In this document: one piece after another, positions 6,517-12,669 of the stretch
How positions within the stretch are numbered: position 1 is the first letter of the stretch
Layout: each line of letters opens with the position of its first letter
NCBI GenBank assembly: GCA_023091735.1
Contig: JALKBU010000726.1
Location: 1 to 26,571 of the forward strand
Reading direction: 5' to 3'
Source: Trichomonas tenax
Taxonomy: Eukaryota > Parabasalia > Trichomonadida > Trichomonadidae
Length of the DNA: 26,571 nt
The notes under the pieces: generated by a model
Seen by the model: only the letters and a program-made list of their open reading frames with translations
Told to the model about the DNA's origin: nothing
Databases searched by the model: none
Made by a program: the position numbers and the translations under genes

Positions 6517-6648
6517 TATCGATAAAATTTTTTATTTTTGGATCGTAAAAATTGCTATATCAATCCAAATAAAAGATATCACTGATTGTTAATCTCACTG
6601 AAAATTGAGAATTGAGTATTACGCAAAATCGCATAATTGACCATAATT

Positions 6649-9600
6649 ATGTTTTTCTTCCTAAAATTAGCTCTCTGTGAAACCATTGACTACGATAAGA
6701 TCTGCGATATCAAGTGCTTCGTGCAGTCTATGGTTTTTGACCTCGGTGATAAAGCTATAGAAATCGGAGGTGGAATTGGAATGAAAGATATTAAAGTTCA
6801 CTCAATCTCACTAAATAACTTCGAATTCCAATTTAATCCAGAGACAACTGCTATTGATGAGCAATTCGAAATTAAGTTGTATCTTGATTGTATTGCAAAT
6901 GGAGTTTATTATGATGCACTATCTTCGGGTACGTTTACAGCTGTTGCAACCGGTGTTACAGTTTCCCTAGGTATGACCTTCCAGACCGATCAATATGGCT
7001 TTATTGTTAATGTTATAATCGAGCCTTATCCAACTTGTAACATTCAAATAGATGATTTAAAGATTACCTCCACACAAGCAGGACTAACAATCTTGACTCC
7101 ACTGATTAGAGCCATTAGAAATCAAATAGCTCCCATGGTTTGCCCAGAAATTCAAAAATTAGGTCAAAACATCACAGAAATGATCCAACCATTCAACAAC
7201 ATGACAAGAAACAACCTAAATGGTTCGGTTCCTTTTGACATTCCTCTCGAAGATGACATAATTGAGCTTGATACAAACGTTCTCTTTAGAGCTCTTCGTT
7301 ATATTTTTGGTACGTTGATCGAAAACGACGGTCCATTTGATTTAAACAAGCTTCTTGGCCGTGTAACAAATAATACTGGCAAATTCACACTAAAAGATTT
7401 GCTTGTAATCATGGATTCAATTAAAGATTTTATGAATTTCAGCACAATTTTCGAGATCCCAGTTGATGCTCTCAATGGGTCAATCGTTCTCTCCTTGGAT
7501 GATTTCTTCATTGATGGACTCAATACATTTCACGATCTTAATCTTCTCCACGTTGTATCCCACTACGACCTTATGACAAACATCAGATTGAGACACTTTA
7601 GTGTCGGTGCCTCAATAAGTTTGGCTCTCAAAGATGCAATAACTGGAGAAATCACCCTTGGCCAAAAAGTATCAGTAGAAGTCACTTTAAATGATAACAA
7701 GATAGGCTTCATTGCGCAATTAGCATTGCCTCACGGAAGAGGCGACGATTATTCGAATGCAATGTGTACAGACATTGACTGTATTGGAGCTCTGTTCTCA
7801 TCTAAGGGAACTGCATTTACCAATTTCAACCTCTCAACAACACTTGATCATGCTTCAATAAATCTCACAACAGGGCAATTACAAGACAAGCTCAATATTG
7901 CTATCAATAACTTATTGCTGTTCATTTCTTTACACTTTGGAAAATTTACAGGTGCTTTCTTGACAGGATTAATGCATGATAATTTGATTCCAATGATTAA
8001 CCATATTATTACGACAAAGATTGATGAAACCGACTGCAAGAAACAAGAGGATCCACCTTATCGAGACATTGATTCATTCTCAACCTATCTTTCATTGGCG
8101 GTCTTGGGTGGGTTTGGTGTTTTTCTTGCTCTCTTTGTTGTATTTTTCGTCAATAACTGCAAGTCCCTTAGGAAGAGCTTCTTCCGCAATGATGAATACG
8201 CATCACTTTTAATGACCAAGAAGCTTCCAGTTTGGTTCCGTCTCTTAATCCCATTCATCCTCCTTTTGACATTCGCGCTTTTCATTTCTTCAAATACAGG
8301 TCTTGGTGCATCCGTTTTCGGTAAGATTTACCTCGGCAAAAACGGAAAGCACGTCGAACTTCCATCTCTGTTCGACTTTGGTCTCATTAACTCAATTCTC
8401 GATATGTGGCACTCTGGAGCTCTCGTTCTCGCCGTTCTCATCGCCATTATGTCCTGCGCATGGCCTTACACTAAGATTGTGTTTATGTTTGTTGTTTGGT
8501 GCCTTCCGGCGACAAAGATCAAACCACACCAACGTCAGAAAGCCGTCACAATCCTGGATATCCTTGGTAAATGGTCTCTTATCGACTCATATGTTATGAT
8601 TCTCATGCTCATCGCTTTCAGAATGAAGATCAATCTCCCTCCAATTGATGACGATAATGTCTTCCAAATCAACCTATTCGTATTCCCTGCTTACGGTTTC
8701 ATTACATTGGTCATTGGTACCATTCTTTCTCTTTTGTGTTCACAGATTATTCTTGCTGCAGAACGTTATGTGGATAAGGAGAAGCTGAAGGATCACGAGA
8801 TCCAAGTTTTATACGATGAAGAAGAAAAGAAGAGGGAGAAGGAAATGGAGGCAGAGTATTCATACTCATATTCTTATTCCGATGATCTTCCACCACGATC
8901 CACGGAAAATGACAAGAAGAAGTCTAAAGAGAAGAAAGCGAGGAGAATCACTATGGAAGTTGAGTTGAACGACATCGATGATTCTCCAAAACCAAAGAAG
9001 AAGAAACAAGATAACATTGATGACGGCGTTCCGGCCCCCACACCAGATCCAGAGGTACCCCCGGCTTCCCAGAACCAACAGCTATTAGAACATGAGAAGA
9101 AACCAAAGAAGAAGATGACACTTAAGCAACATATGCTTGAAAAGGAGTCTTTTGTTGTTTATGTTTGGGCAGAAGGATTAATCATGAAGAATTTAATCAC
9201 CCTTGCCCTGCTATTTGGTATAATTCTGTTTTTGTTTGGCAGCTACATGAAAACATTCTCGTTCGAATTTGTCGGTCTTGCTGGATGGGCACTTCAGTTG
9301 TTGAATGCTGAGCAATACAGAGAGTATTCTGTCATCGATCTTGGTTTGAAGCTTCCAGATGCTGCAGAACAGCCAAACTCTTTTACTGTTAGATGCACGC
9401 AGGCTGTTTACATTCTTGTTACTAATATTATGCCGCTTATTCACATGATTGGCCTGTGCATACTTTGGTTCATTCCGCTTAAGATCAAGAGAATCCACTT
9501 CATGGAAAAACTCTGCGAATACATGTATTCTTGGGCTTGTTTGGATGTTTTTGTCATTGCTATCGTTGCCGCTGTCATGGAAATTTCACAGCTTGCCAAG

Positions 9601-9873
9601 TTCATGGTAGGTGATAAGTGTCTTGTTGTTGATGTTATCACTAAGAATTATTTCGCCGACGAAGAATTAATCAAGGACCATCTTACCTGTTTTGACGTTA
9701 TCACAACACTTCTTCAGGGTTCTTACTTGCTCATTGCTGCAGCTGTTTGCCATACAATTGCAACAATCGGCATCAACGTGACTTTGAAGAAACTGTTCAA
9801 ACAGATGGCTATGTATGAAAGAAAGAGGAGAGAAGATAAAGGTCTTTCTCCTCTATTAGCGAAGACAAAATAA
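6649..9873 (+). CDS. TULIP (BPI/LBP-like) - PqiA/LetA-like fusion membrane protein
   Basis: 1074 aa from the ATG at 6649; four more codons are open back to a TTG at 6637, which is not a credible eukaryotic start. A short signal peptide (MFFFLKLALC) leads into a lumenal/extracellular part (about 15-475) with the amphipathic beta-strand pattern of BPI/LBP lipid-binding domains, probably two TULIP units (about 20-190 and 205-465), with several Asn-X-Ser/Thr sites. A TM helix follows at about 478-503. First PqiA-type module: TM segments near 526-548, 589-623, 640-661 and 677-707, with the hallmark GKWSLID. Then a charged cytosolic linker (about 710-840; YSYSYSYS, KPKKKK, Pro-rich). Second PqiA-type module: about 845-867, 918-946, 962-985 and 1022-1046, with WACLDVFVIAI. 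Bacterial PqiA/LetA are inner-membrane partners of MCE lipid-transport proteins; I see no CxxC zinc ribbon here. Inference: lipid handling at the plasma membrane or an endomembrane. Confidence 0.75.
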   Translation: MFFFLKLALCETIDYDKICDIKCFVQSMVFDLGDKAIEIGGGIGMKDIKVHSISLNNFEFQFNPETTAIDEQFEIKLYLDCIANGVYYDALSSGTFTAVATGVTVSLGMTFQTDQYGFIVNVIIEPYPTCNIQIDDLKITSTQAGLTILTPLIRAIRNQIAPMVCPEIQKLGQNITEMIQPFNNMTRNNLNGSVPFDIPLEDDIIELDTNVLFRALRYIFGTLIENDGPFDLNKLLGRVTNNTGKFTLKDLLVIMDSIKDFMNFSTIFEIPVDALNGSIVLSLDDFFIDGLNTFHDLNLLHVVSHYDLMTNIRLRHFSVGASISLALKDAITGEITLGQKVSVEVTLNDNKIGFIAQLALPHGRGDDYSNAMCTDIDCIGALFSSKGTAFTNFNLSTTLDHASINLTTGQLQDKLNIAINNLLLFISLHFGKFTGAFLTGLMHDNLIPMINHIITTKIDETDCKKQEDPPYRDIDSFSTYLSLAVLGGFGVFLALFVVFFVNNCKSLRKSFFRNDEYASLLMTKKLPVWFRLLIPFILLLTFALFISSNTGLGASVFGKIYLGKNGKHVELPSLFDFGLINSILDMWHSGALVLAVLIAIMSCAWPYTKIVFMFVVWCLPATKIKPHQRQKAVTILDILGKWSLIDSYVMILMLIAFRMKINLPPIDDDNVFQINLFVFPAYGFITLVIGTILSLLCSQIILAAERYVDKEKLKDHEIQVLYDEEEKKREKEMEAEYSYSYSYSDDLPPRSTENDKKKSKEKKARRITMEVELNDIDDSPKPKKKKQDNIDDGVPAPTPDPEVPPASQNQQLLEHEKKPKKKMTLKQHMLEKESFVVYVWAEGLIMKNLITLALLFGIILFLFGSYMKTFSFEFVGLAGWALQLLNAEQYREYSVIDLGLKLPDAAEQPNSFTVRCTQAVYILVTNIMPLIHMIGLCILWFIPLKIKRIHFMEKLCEYMYSWACLDVFVIAIVAAVMEISQLAKFMVGDKCLVVDVITKNYFADEELIKDHLTCFDVITTLLQGSYLLIAAAVCHTIATIGINVTLKKLFKQMAMYERKRREDKGLSPLLAKTK

Positions 9874-9930: not shown

Positions 9931-12669
9931 TTAAAGGACAAGGGGTACATCTGTAGTACCAATTGATTTAGTTCTCTTGCATGTTTTGATTGTAATTAGC
10001 AAAGCCATTACAATCATCAACAGCCCAGCGAGAACACAGGCAGTCAACATTAAAGGAAAAGCATAAGGTTTCTGCCACCACACAACAATAAATTGACTAT
10101 TATCATCATTATTATCTTTATTTGCTGTGGAGACTGGGAATAATGTTCGTATAGGAGGAACTTCCGGTGTTTGTAGAGGGACACTCGATGGACTTGGAGC
10201 AGGAGTTGCCGGAATAAAAGTAGAGTCAATGAAATCGAGTATAGCCTTTCCTGCGTTAAATGCTCTTGCAACAATAGTAATATTGGTTCCAGGCTCAAGA
10301 ACTTCGTAATTAGAATGAACCTCATAAGGCGAGGCATCCCTGAATTCAATTGAAGCAAAACTATCATGTGGATACCAAGAATTGCCCTTAATCAAATAAA
10401 AGAAGGCATTTCCATGGAATTTGAGATCAATTCGAGGCTTAGTGATATTAGGAACAGTTTGTACGAAATAGTTAAGGCCAGTACCAACGAAAGATAGTGA
10501 TTTCTTAACCTTTATATCGCACTTGTTTCCAGCATATCCACTATGACATTTACAAATACCTCTTGTGCAGGACTCACAATTATTACTGAAGCAATGCGTG
10601 TTATCTTGGAAAGTAAGCTTAGCGAATTTGTTATTTGAAACAGCAAATGCAAATGAAATATTTCCTTCAAAATTAGATGATAAAACATGAGCTTTCCATT
10701 TTCCAGGAACAGAATTAGCTAAAACTTTCTTGTTCGTTGTTGCAATTGCAAAGCTTTTCGTAACTGTATAGTTGTTTCCTTGTGGGTCTTCGAGAATGAG
10801 ATCTAAATCTGCGTATAATGGGTAGGCGGCATTTCTGGAAACTGGTGGATCAAGCCACGATATCGATGCCGAAACATTACCCGTGTCAGAATCAAATTCC
10901 GTTGACATATGCTGAAGACCAGCTATGGTTTGTCGATCAGAAAAGGAAGCCTGAATAGCCAGATTCAGCTGCGGAATTCCATGTCCCAATTCAATTGTTG
11001 ATTCATCAGGAGAAGAAGCAATGATCATTGATTTAAGCAAAGAAGAGCTCGGAGTGTAGCCTGATTCGCGCATTTTCTGCCGTAAAAGTGTTGCAAGTCC
11101 TGCTATCATTGGGGTTGATTCTGAGGTTCCACTAAACTTATACAAACTATCAGCTGTGCATTTTCTCTCCGAAGTAGAGGTTCCATAAGAAAGTGGGCCT
11201 AAAATTTCACCTGGCGCAGAAATATCGGGCTTTGACAGTCCTGAGTATGTTGGACCTGAACTAGCGAAATCTGCTTTCTTATTTCTATTATATGAATTTA
11301 TATGGAATGAAAAATTTGCTTTTGATGAGAACTTAATTGCATCAAAATCCTCTTGCGATTGTGTTGCTAATACAGCAGCTTGACTTTCAGGGCAATCCAT
11401 GCTGTTTCTAATAATAACAATCTTCGAACCGCTTGTTTCTACATTTTTAACTGAATCACAGCTATCTTCGGCTGTTATATAAGTTGGCTTTGATACATCA
11501 AATATTGGCTCTTCGCCTTGCATTAAATTCCAAAGAAGCTGTGACCACGGTGTCTGTATTAATGAAATGACTTTGTCATCAAATTGAATTTGTGGTTGAT
11601 TTGATTCTGACATTCTTTGACCCGGTGTTCCTTCGCTGGCACCAACACAAAAAACATTCTTTGCAGATGATGGACTTTCTATTGTTGCCTCTTTGGCATT
11701 GTTTCCTGCTGCAAACAGGAACAAAATATCAGAGTTATTATACGCAATTTCATCCCAAAGAGAAGTAGTAAGTTGCTGGAAATCTTTTTCTTGAGAGCCC
11801 CAGCTATTGGATATTATTCCGCTGTTGTATGCTTTCATGCGATTTATGAGTGCCTCTTTATCAAAATTATCATATATATCTTTTCTGTCACCCAACGCGA
11901 GATCTAAGAAAAATAGTTTTGATTCAGGTGCAATTCCATTGTATAAAGGTAAAACATTACCGCAATTAGCATTTCCTGACAATATAGCAGCTGTGTGAGT
12001 TCCATGACCCGGGATGTAGTCATTGAAATCCTTCCAAGCATCGTAATAAATTATTTTACGATGATTCATATTTTCAGTATTTGCTTTCAGTTCAACAGTC
12101 GAATCATAAAACATAGGATGCTTGTAATCGATGCCAGTATCTGTTACAGTAACGATTTCATTAGATCCATTTATGTTAAGTGATCTTGGATATGTCATGT
12201 ATCCATTCTTGTAACCAATATCATTTTTACCCGTTTCAAGAAATCCTGCCTCGAATCTAGTACTAAAACTAATTGGATTTTGTTTTTGTATTTCTAGAAC
12301 ATGCTTATCATTGCATATTGATTGCAGTTGCTGTACTGATGGGTTCTCTATAACAAAATAGTTTCCATAAAGTCTTTTCGCAGGAATTGATTCTGAAAAT
12401 ACGAAATTACTTGTTGTCTCAACAACATAATATGAATCTGATGATTCCAAAGTCGATCTAATTGGAATATTAGTCCTAATTTTAGTCATTTCGAAGTTTT
12501 TGAAAACTTCAAAATTTGATTTATCGATATAGATATCTCTTTTTGTGCTAGAGACATAAGATTTTGAATCGAAGGAGTAGTTTAAGGCATTCGGGTTGTC
12601 AATTATAACTCTGTACCAACCTTCAACAATGAATAAACTAAATATCAAATGCATGTTTAATTTTGTCAT
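9931..12669 (-). CDS. Subtilisin-like serine peptidase (S8), type I membrane protein
   Basis: 912 aa. An N-terminal hydrophobic signal (HLIFSLFIVEG) is followed by a propeptide-like region to about 150. All catalytic elements of family S8 are present: Asp177 (VTDTGID), His222 (GHGTHTA), oxyanion Asn323 (AAGNN) and Ser516 (SGTSESTP; the usual GTSMATP has Met-Ala where this has Glu-Ser). An insert at about 350-475 separates the oxyanion region from the Ser block, as in PA-type insertions. A Cys-rich EGF-like motif occupies 693-717. A Thr/Pro-rich stalk (about 820-850) precedes a TM helix (about 869-893) and a 19-residue tail. T. vaginalis has surface subtilisins of this plan (TvSUB1-type, family knowledge). 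It should be an active ectopeptidase. It converges with the TULIP-PqiA gene, the stops being only 57 bases apart. Three TGTCAAA repeats precede the start. Confidence 0.9.
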   Translation of the reverse strand: MTKLNMHLIFSLFIVEGWYRVIIDNPNALNYSFDSKSYVSSTKRDIYIDKSNFEVFKNFEMTKIRTNIPIRSTLESSDSYYVVETTSNFVFSESIPAKRLYGNYFVIENPSVQQLQSICNDKHVLEIQKQNPISFSTRFEAGFLETGKNDIGYKNGYMTYPRSLNINGSNEIVTVTDTGIDYKHPMFYDSTVELKANTENMNHRKIIYYDAWKDFNDYIPGHGTHTAAILSGNANCGNVLPLYNGIAPESKLFFLDLALGDRKDIYDNFDKEALINRMKAYNSGIISNSWGSQEKDFQQLTTSLWDEIAYNNSDILFLFAAGNNAKEATIESPSSAKNVFCVGASEGTPGQRMSESNQPQIQFDDKVISLIQTPWSQLLWNLMQGEEPIFDVSKPTYITAEDSCDSVKNVETSGSKIVIIRNSMDCPESQAAVLATQSQEDFDAIKFSSKANFSFHINSYNRNKKADFASSGPTYSGLSKPDISAPGEILGPLSYGTSTSERKCTADSLYKFSGTSESTPMIAGLATLLRQKMRESGYTPSSSLLKSMIIASSPDESTIELGHGIPQLNLAIQASFSDRQTIAGLQHMSTEFDSDTGNVSASISWLDPPVSRNAAYPLYADLDLILEDPQGNNYTVTKSFAIATTNKKVLANSVPGKWKAHVLSSNFEGNISFAFAVSNNKFAKLTFQDNTHCFSNNCESCTRGICKCHSGYAGNKCDIKVKKSLSFVGTGLNYFVQTVPNITKPRIDLKFHGNAFFYLIKGNSWYPHDSFASIEFRDASPYEVHSNYEVLEPGTNITIVARAFNAGKAILDFIDSTFIPATPAPSPSSVPLQTPEVPPIRTLFPVSTANKDNNDDNSQFIVVWWQKPYAFPLMLTACVLAGLLMIVMALLITIKTCKRTKSIGTTDVPLVL

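Follow-up and report, generated by a model that had tools for sequence, protein, structure and literature searches.

We describe a gene of Trichomonas tenax that encodes a lipid-binding type of ectodomain and a bacterial-type membrane unit in one chain. The window, by which we mean the whole stretch of DNA analysed (positions 1 to 26,571 of contig JALKBU010000726.1, assembly GCA_023091735.1), carries this gene at 6649..9873 on the plus strand as one open frame of 1,074 residues. Its product has a BPI-type TULIP ectodomain that is placed outside the cytosol in the predicted topology, and a membrane helix links this ectodomain to two PqiA modules of four helices each, which together match LetA. 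A preliminary description of this DNA, made from its letters alone, had proposed such a union of a TULIP ectodomain with a PqiA/LetA-type membrane half, and sequence comparison and predicted structure both bear it out. Whether the pairing had been described was left open there; it is already in print: the available portion of one article reports that some CETP/BPI proteins, from protists and amoebae, end in a PqiA domain and have 9-12 membrane helices (Wong and Levine, 2017; PMC5507252). The protein studied here, with the same domain order and nine predicted helices, belongs to the fusions so defined. In that portion of the article the fusion takes up two sentences, 'Trichomonas' does not occur, and the authors already consider that one lipid may be handled by both parts, close to what the preliminary description had in mind; the article is older than the LetA structure. 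No other paper on a TULIP-PqiA fusion was found among titles and abstract openings, a search whose coverage leaves out most subscription journals. Thus, the gene is a further case of a known pairing, with a sharper structural placement.

We consider it reasonably probable that the protein is a lipid carrier and a lipid permease in a single chain. The TULIP domain would hold a lipid in its greasy tube and would hand it over to the PqiA unit of its own chain, or receive it from there, at a pocket within the membrane, with the Lys-Asp pair of the first module helping to move the head group. An MCE tunnel would not be needed for such a transfer. In trichomonads the likely direction would be uptake, whether at the surface of the cell or in a digestive vacuole.

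The membrane half

The PqiA family PF04403, proposed earlier as a check, matches the protein in two stretches (E 6.1e-14; a score of 52.6 bits, with the curated cut-off at 23.8), and at E <= 0.01 it matches 36 of 37 family members scanned, a set made up of the fusion protein, two paralogues from the same genome and 34 of 121 homologues (the C754 paralogue was used in a form that is about 41 C-terminal codons short and starts 32 codons before its first Met). Nine membrane helices are predicted from hydropathy and from an AlphaFold2 model of the full length (pLDDT 80.0, pTM 0.66). Helix 0 (residues 476-503; 8074..8157) leads from the ectodomain to the cytosolic side and precedes module 1 (residues 528-712; 8230..8784; PF04403 stretch at residues 579-657) and module 2 (residues 844-1046; 9178..9786; PF04403 stretch at 9406-9618), each with four membrane helices and a match to the LetA fold, as expected of a LetA-type unit. 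The frame and the two hallmark motifs first noticed by eye, GKWSLID (residues 640-646) and WACLDVFVIAI (residues 962-972), are all present. A 'double PqiA' make-up had been stressed as well and the two stretches are there, but they are no doubling and no special trait, as E. coli LetA, too, is matched by PF04403 in two stretches.

Conservation was followed in an alignment of 63 members, the fusion protein and 62 of the 121 homologues then known; of the 59 homologues left outside it, 22 are exactly 1,064 residues long and score nearly alike. In module 1 the Lys after WPY (K609) and the Asp of GKWSxxD (D646) are both kept in 62/63 members, the sole exception being the distant P0003. Module 2 has D966, a Cys991/Cys1014 pair kept in 62/63 members and, at the position matching K609, H932, which is His in 48 of the 63. 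The K/D pair is not universal: in the distant relatives P0003 and P0122 other residues stand in place of the module 1 Lys and Asp (WPYAQ, GKWSFIY). The profiles with which P0003 was compared include P0003 as a row, which makes its match circular. It is conceivable that the protein is an anchored receptor, its TULIP part capturing surface lipids or bacterial lipopolysaccharide and its PqiA half acting as an anchor or signalling partner that moves nothing. However, a mere anchor needs no two modules with conserved charged residues near the membrane, such as K609 and D646, and the membrane half is conserved more strongly than the ectodomain (block means of 0.54-0.68 versus 0.33-0.48, linker aside), so that we regard such a receptor as unlikely.

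According to the predicted topology, the TULIP domain faces outward together with the Cys pairs and eight of the nine sequons, and the charged linker faces inward. The TULIP domain hence has the position that MCE proteins occupy in bacteria. The claim that it replaces the MCE tunnel is in keeping with this placement and with the lack of any match to the MCE domain (PF02470) in the genome searched (53.4 Mb in 1,528 contigs, an assembly that is possibly incomplete), but the parts of that claim which imply a prior MCE partner and lipid movement find no support. The same topology fits either direction of transport, and the direction taken by bacterial LetA and PqiA is itself debated. It would thus be compatible with a unit that loads membrane lipid onto the TULIP domain for secretion or for transfer within the lumen of an endomembrane compartment. 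Nothing decisive speaks against such a role, but we think it improbable and prefer uptake because trichomonads depend on lipids from outside.

The linker between the modules (residues 713-836; 8785..9156) is predicted to be cytosolic and is disordered in the model (pLDDT <50 at 738-816). Its charge is real, with 27 K/R and 29 D/E in 126 residues, but it does not characterize the family: a long linker occurs in only 3/63 aligned members, and the other 60 have 13-28 residues. Among the 63, a Lys/Glu-rich linker with a YSYSYSYS stretch is confined to the fusion protein and two of its close relatives. The closest named protein, T. vaginalis TVAG_414190 (full-length identity 62%), also has a long linker, of 128 residues, and that of T. 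vaginalis TVAG_124530 is short (15 residues); database names for the two are 'hypothetical protein' or 'Lipid-binding serum glycopro...', and within the literature coverage given above no paper was found under either locus tag. Matches of FAM76, CDC45 and Sec62 over the linker were put down to charge bias. Possibly the long linker is a regulatory or partner-binding insert.

The TULIP ectodomain

Because the fusion protein alone gives no match to PF01273 (BPI/LBP/CETP N) in repeated Pfam scans, the TULIP assignment needs its relatives, and a direct BPI/LBP search of the kind first envisaged misses the protein itself but succeeds through its family. PF01273 is matched at E <= 0.01 by 15 of the 37 members scanned (best 1.5e-10), and the full-length paralogues on contigs C195 and C754 of the same genome score 35.0 and 39.1 bits against a cut-off of 28.8. 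Compared with the PDB, the profile of the 63-member family reaches BPI (1bp1) at E 6.1e-12 and LBP (4m4d) at E 1.5e-7. Two distant proteins that stand outside the profile, P0123 and P0124, match the ectodomain profile at E 3.4e-8 over most of its length and at E 9.9e-9 over its second half only, respectively, and both also match module 1; in P0123 module 2 is not clear, and P0124 gives no PF01273 match in the Pfam scan. The family profile also gave rows for retinaldehyde-binding protein, which at E 0.14 are not significant, and a ribosomal protein L11 match of the ectodomain (E 1.2; Pfam 0.24) was judged to be chance.

The structural model points the same way. An alignment made for the ectodomain took in that of the fusion protein and 60 of the 121 homologues. 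Modelled alone by AlphaFold2, the ectodomain (pLDDT 84.6, pTM 0.75) begins with barrel N (about residues 21-188; 6709..7212), whose strands (37-141) and long helix (146-187) superpose on LBP at 3.4 A over 141 residues. In this model, the fold of an N-terminal TULIP barrel is present in the ectodomain. Cys130 and Cys165 (7036..7143), which align with two Cys of BPI, occur together in 26/63 members, singly in 2 and not at all in 35, and hence co-occur in 26 of the 28 members having either; we take the BPI pair to be a disulfide, and a disulfide is probable here. Against this evidence one may set the failure of PF01273 on the fusion protein alone and the record of P0123, which reaches PF01273 at E 0.13 only and for which no sequence of the PDB comes up at E <= 1, yet two paralogues above the curated cut-off, a profile that reaches BPI, the superposition of barrel N and the co-occurring Cys largely refute, for barrel N, the notion that an unrelated beta-rich domain matches TULIP by chance, which we hold to be very improbable indeed.

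Of the two units thought probable at the outset, barrel N is thus clear, whereas barrel C (about residues 259-460; 7423..8028; strands 267-406, helix 412-460) is modelled as a probable second TULIP barrel in a tentative arrangement against barrel N. In the BPI/LBP/CETP family two such barrels form a boomerang; structure alignments of the model with BPI and CETP span both barrels, but at an rmsd >20 A. The two halves of the ectodomain show no mutual homology by profile (probability 8%). Cys378 and Cys463 (7780..8037) are Cys in 63/63 members and may form a disulfide between barrel C and the stalk. Where a signal peptide had been noticed, there is a hydrophobic leader (residues 1-15; 6649..6693), but its helix (2-8) is modelled at low confidence, and it is therefore a probable signal peptide only. 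The TULIP barrel is common to the fusion and to BPI, LBP and CETP, on which barrel N can be superposed but the two-barrel pair of the fusion model cannot. Unlike the fusion, those proteins are secreted and lack a membrane part, according to the available text of Wong and Levine (2017; PMC5507252).

Bacterial relatives and module order

The membrane half differs from the E. coli proteins. E. coli LetA (YebS) has four CxxC motifs and PqiA five, which we take to be zinc ribbons, whereas the fusion protein has none; beyond residue 500, 57/63 family members have none and 6/63 have one or two. Moreover, the motif pair equivalent to K609 and D646 lies in module 2 of E. coli LetA (K328 and D367, which reportedly matter for LetA function) and likewise of E. 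coli PqiA (PTLK and GRWSMID), and a Lys in the second module, the rule drawn from these two proteins, is not found in the fusion protein.

Both features recur together in Planctomycetota, a phylum in which PF04403 matches in 36/199 sampled genomes. CxxC-less tandem PqiA frames from this phylum (L012/L024, L051, L060, L061 and L062) carry the Lys in their first module, and the second lacks it, in 5/5 cases. They resemble the fusion in having two modules, no CxxC and the Lys first, and differ in being bacterial and without TULIP. In the CxxC-bearing frame pairs (L026-L031), Lys and GRWSMLD sit in the downstream module, although in L026 the upstream module also has the Lys, with Glu replacing Asp. 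Three CxxC-less Planctomycetota proteins fit the membrane profile of the fusions at E 1.5e-11, 3.1e-9 and 2.7e-7, the best among the single sequences compared, versus 1.4e-5 for LetA and 9.8e-6 for PqiA; the class alignment holds three distinct proteins, with L051 and L063 being the same frame and L060 and L061 left out. By motif, the membrane half of the fusion appears nearer to the CxxC-less bacterial type. However, both fusion modules fit the second module of LetA best by profile, which argues against a simple module swap, and since the hhalign comparison with a half-swapped LetA could not be interpreted, it is the motifs that carry the point on module order. The hhalign alignments to bacterial proteins cover only about 60-120 columns, which were judged too few for a tree of donors. 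A contig scan with the family alignment in search of a bacterial TULIP-PqiA fusion returned 136 pattern stretches, among which only one relative was confirmed, and this is a plain tandem PqiA frame (332 residues).

The genes for E. coli LetA and PqiA adjoin letB and pqiB, which encode MCE proteins, in contrast to the fusion's genome with its lack of MCE matches. All five genomes with CxxC-less Planctomycetota tandem proteins have MCE matches. One of these genes (L012 3833-4831, on G001:C18) apparently lies away from MCE genes, those matches being on C6 and C10 of its genome. It is tempting to imagine, albeit as a scenario that we ourselves rather doubt, that eukaryotes took a Lys-first tandem PqiA without zinc ribbons from bacteria, put a TULIP domain in the place of the MCE tunnel to yield an MCE-free lipid importer, and that trichomonads multiplied this one-protein pump for scavenging.

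Family members and genomic context

In the T. tenax genome PF04403 finds three full-length genes and a 171-residue frame on contig C750, and PF01273 is found only in the two paralogues. The C750 frame (C750:21211-21645, in L010, G000:C750:16500-25500) holds the second PqiA module only, closely resembles that of the C195 paralogue and may be a partial copy or one in decay. When the membrane half served as query, at least 167 proteins came up at E <= 1 out of 7,993 candidates that were scored; among the 120 matches listed, precomputed Pfam assignments give PqiA in all and PF01273 also in 13. Named members come from T. vaginalis, Histomonas meleagridis and Tritrichomonas musculus, all of which belong to Parabasalia. 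Among P0091-P0121, 22 family members are listed with exactly 1,064 residues each, near-equal scores and a longest contig of 3.4-3.7 kb each, and 229 member sequences are represented by P0054 and 230 by P0076. Some protist may harbour the fusion family in many copies, or express many copies of it.

In the window, the fusion gene runs from its first ATG at 6649 to the end of its stop codon at 9873; the program-made list of reading frames opens the same frame at a TTG at 6637. Neighbouring frames match eukaryotic families in Pfam (VPS9, subtilase, PC4 and Rap-GAP). The subtilase gene (9931-12669, minus strand; Peptidase_S8, E 2.6e-42) is convergent with the fusion gene, with 57 bases between them, and a hydrophobic stretch close to its C terminus was seen by eye.

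Implications

While the pairing itself is not new to print and the lipid-moving role is a proposal that we infer, the mechanism, if true, would have consequences for both the family and the organism. LetA-type transporters would not depend on MCE tunnels, and membrane units of this type would be able to operate, within a single chain, with a lipid carrier of quite another sort. Because donor and acceptor are covalently linked, the fusion would also offer a clean test of the LetA unit by itself. For trichomonads, a candidate route of lipid uptake would thereby be named.
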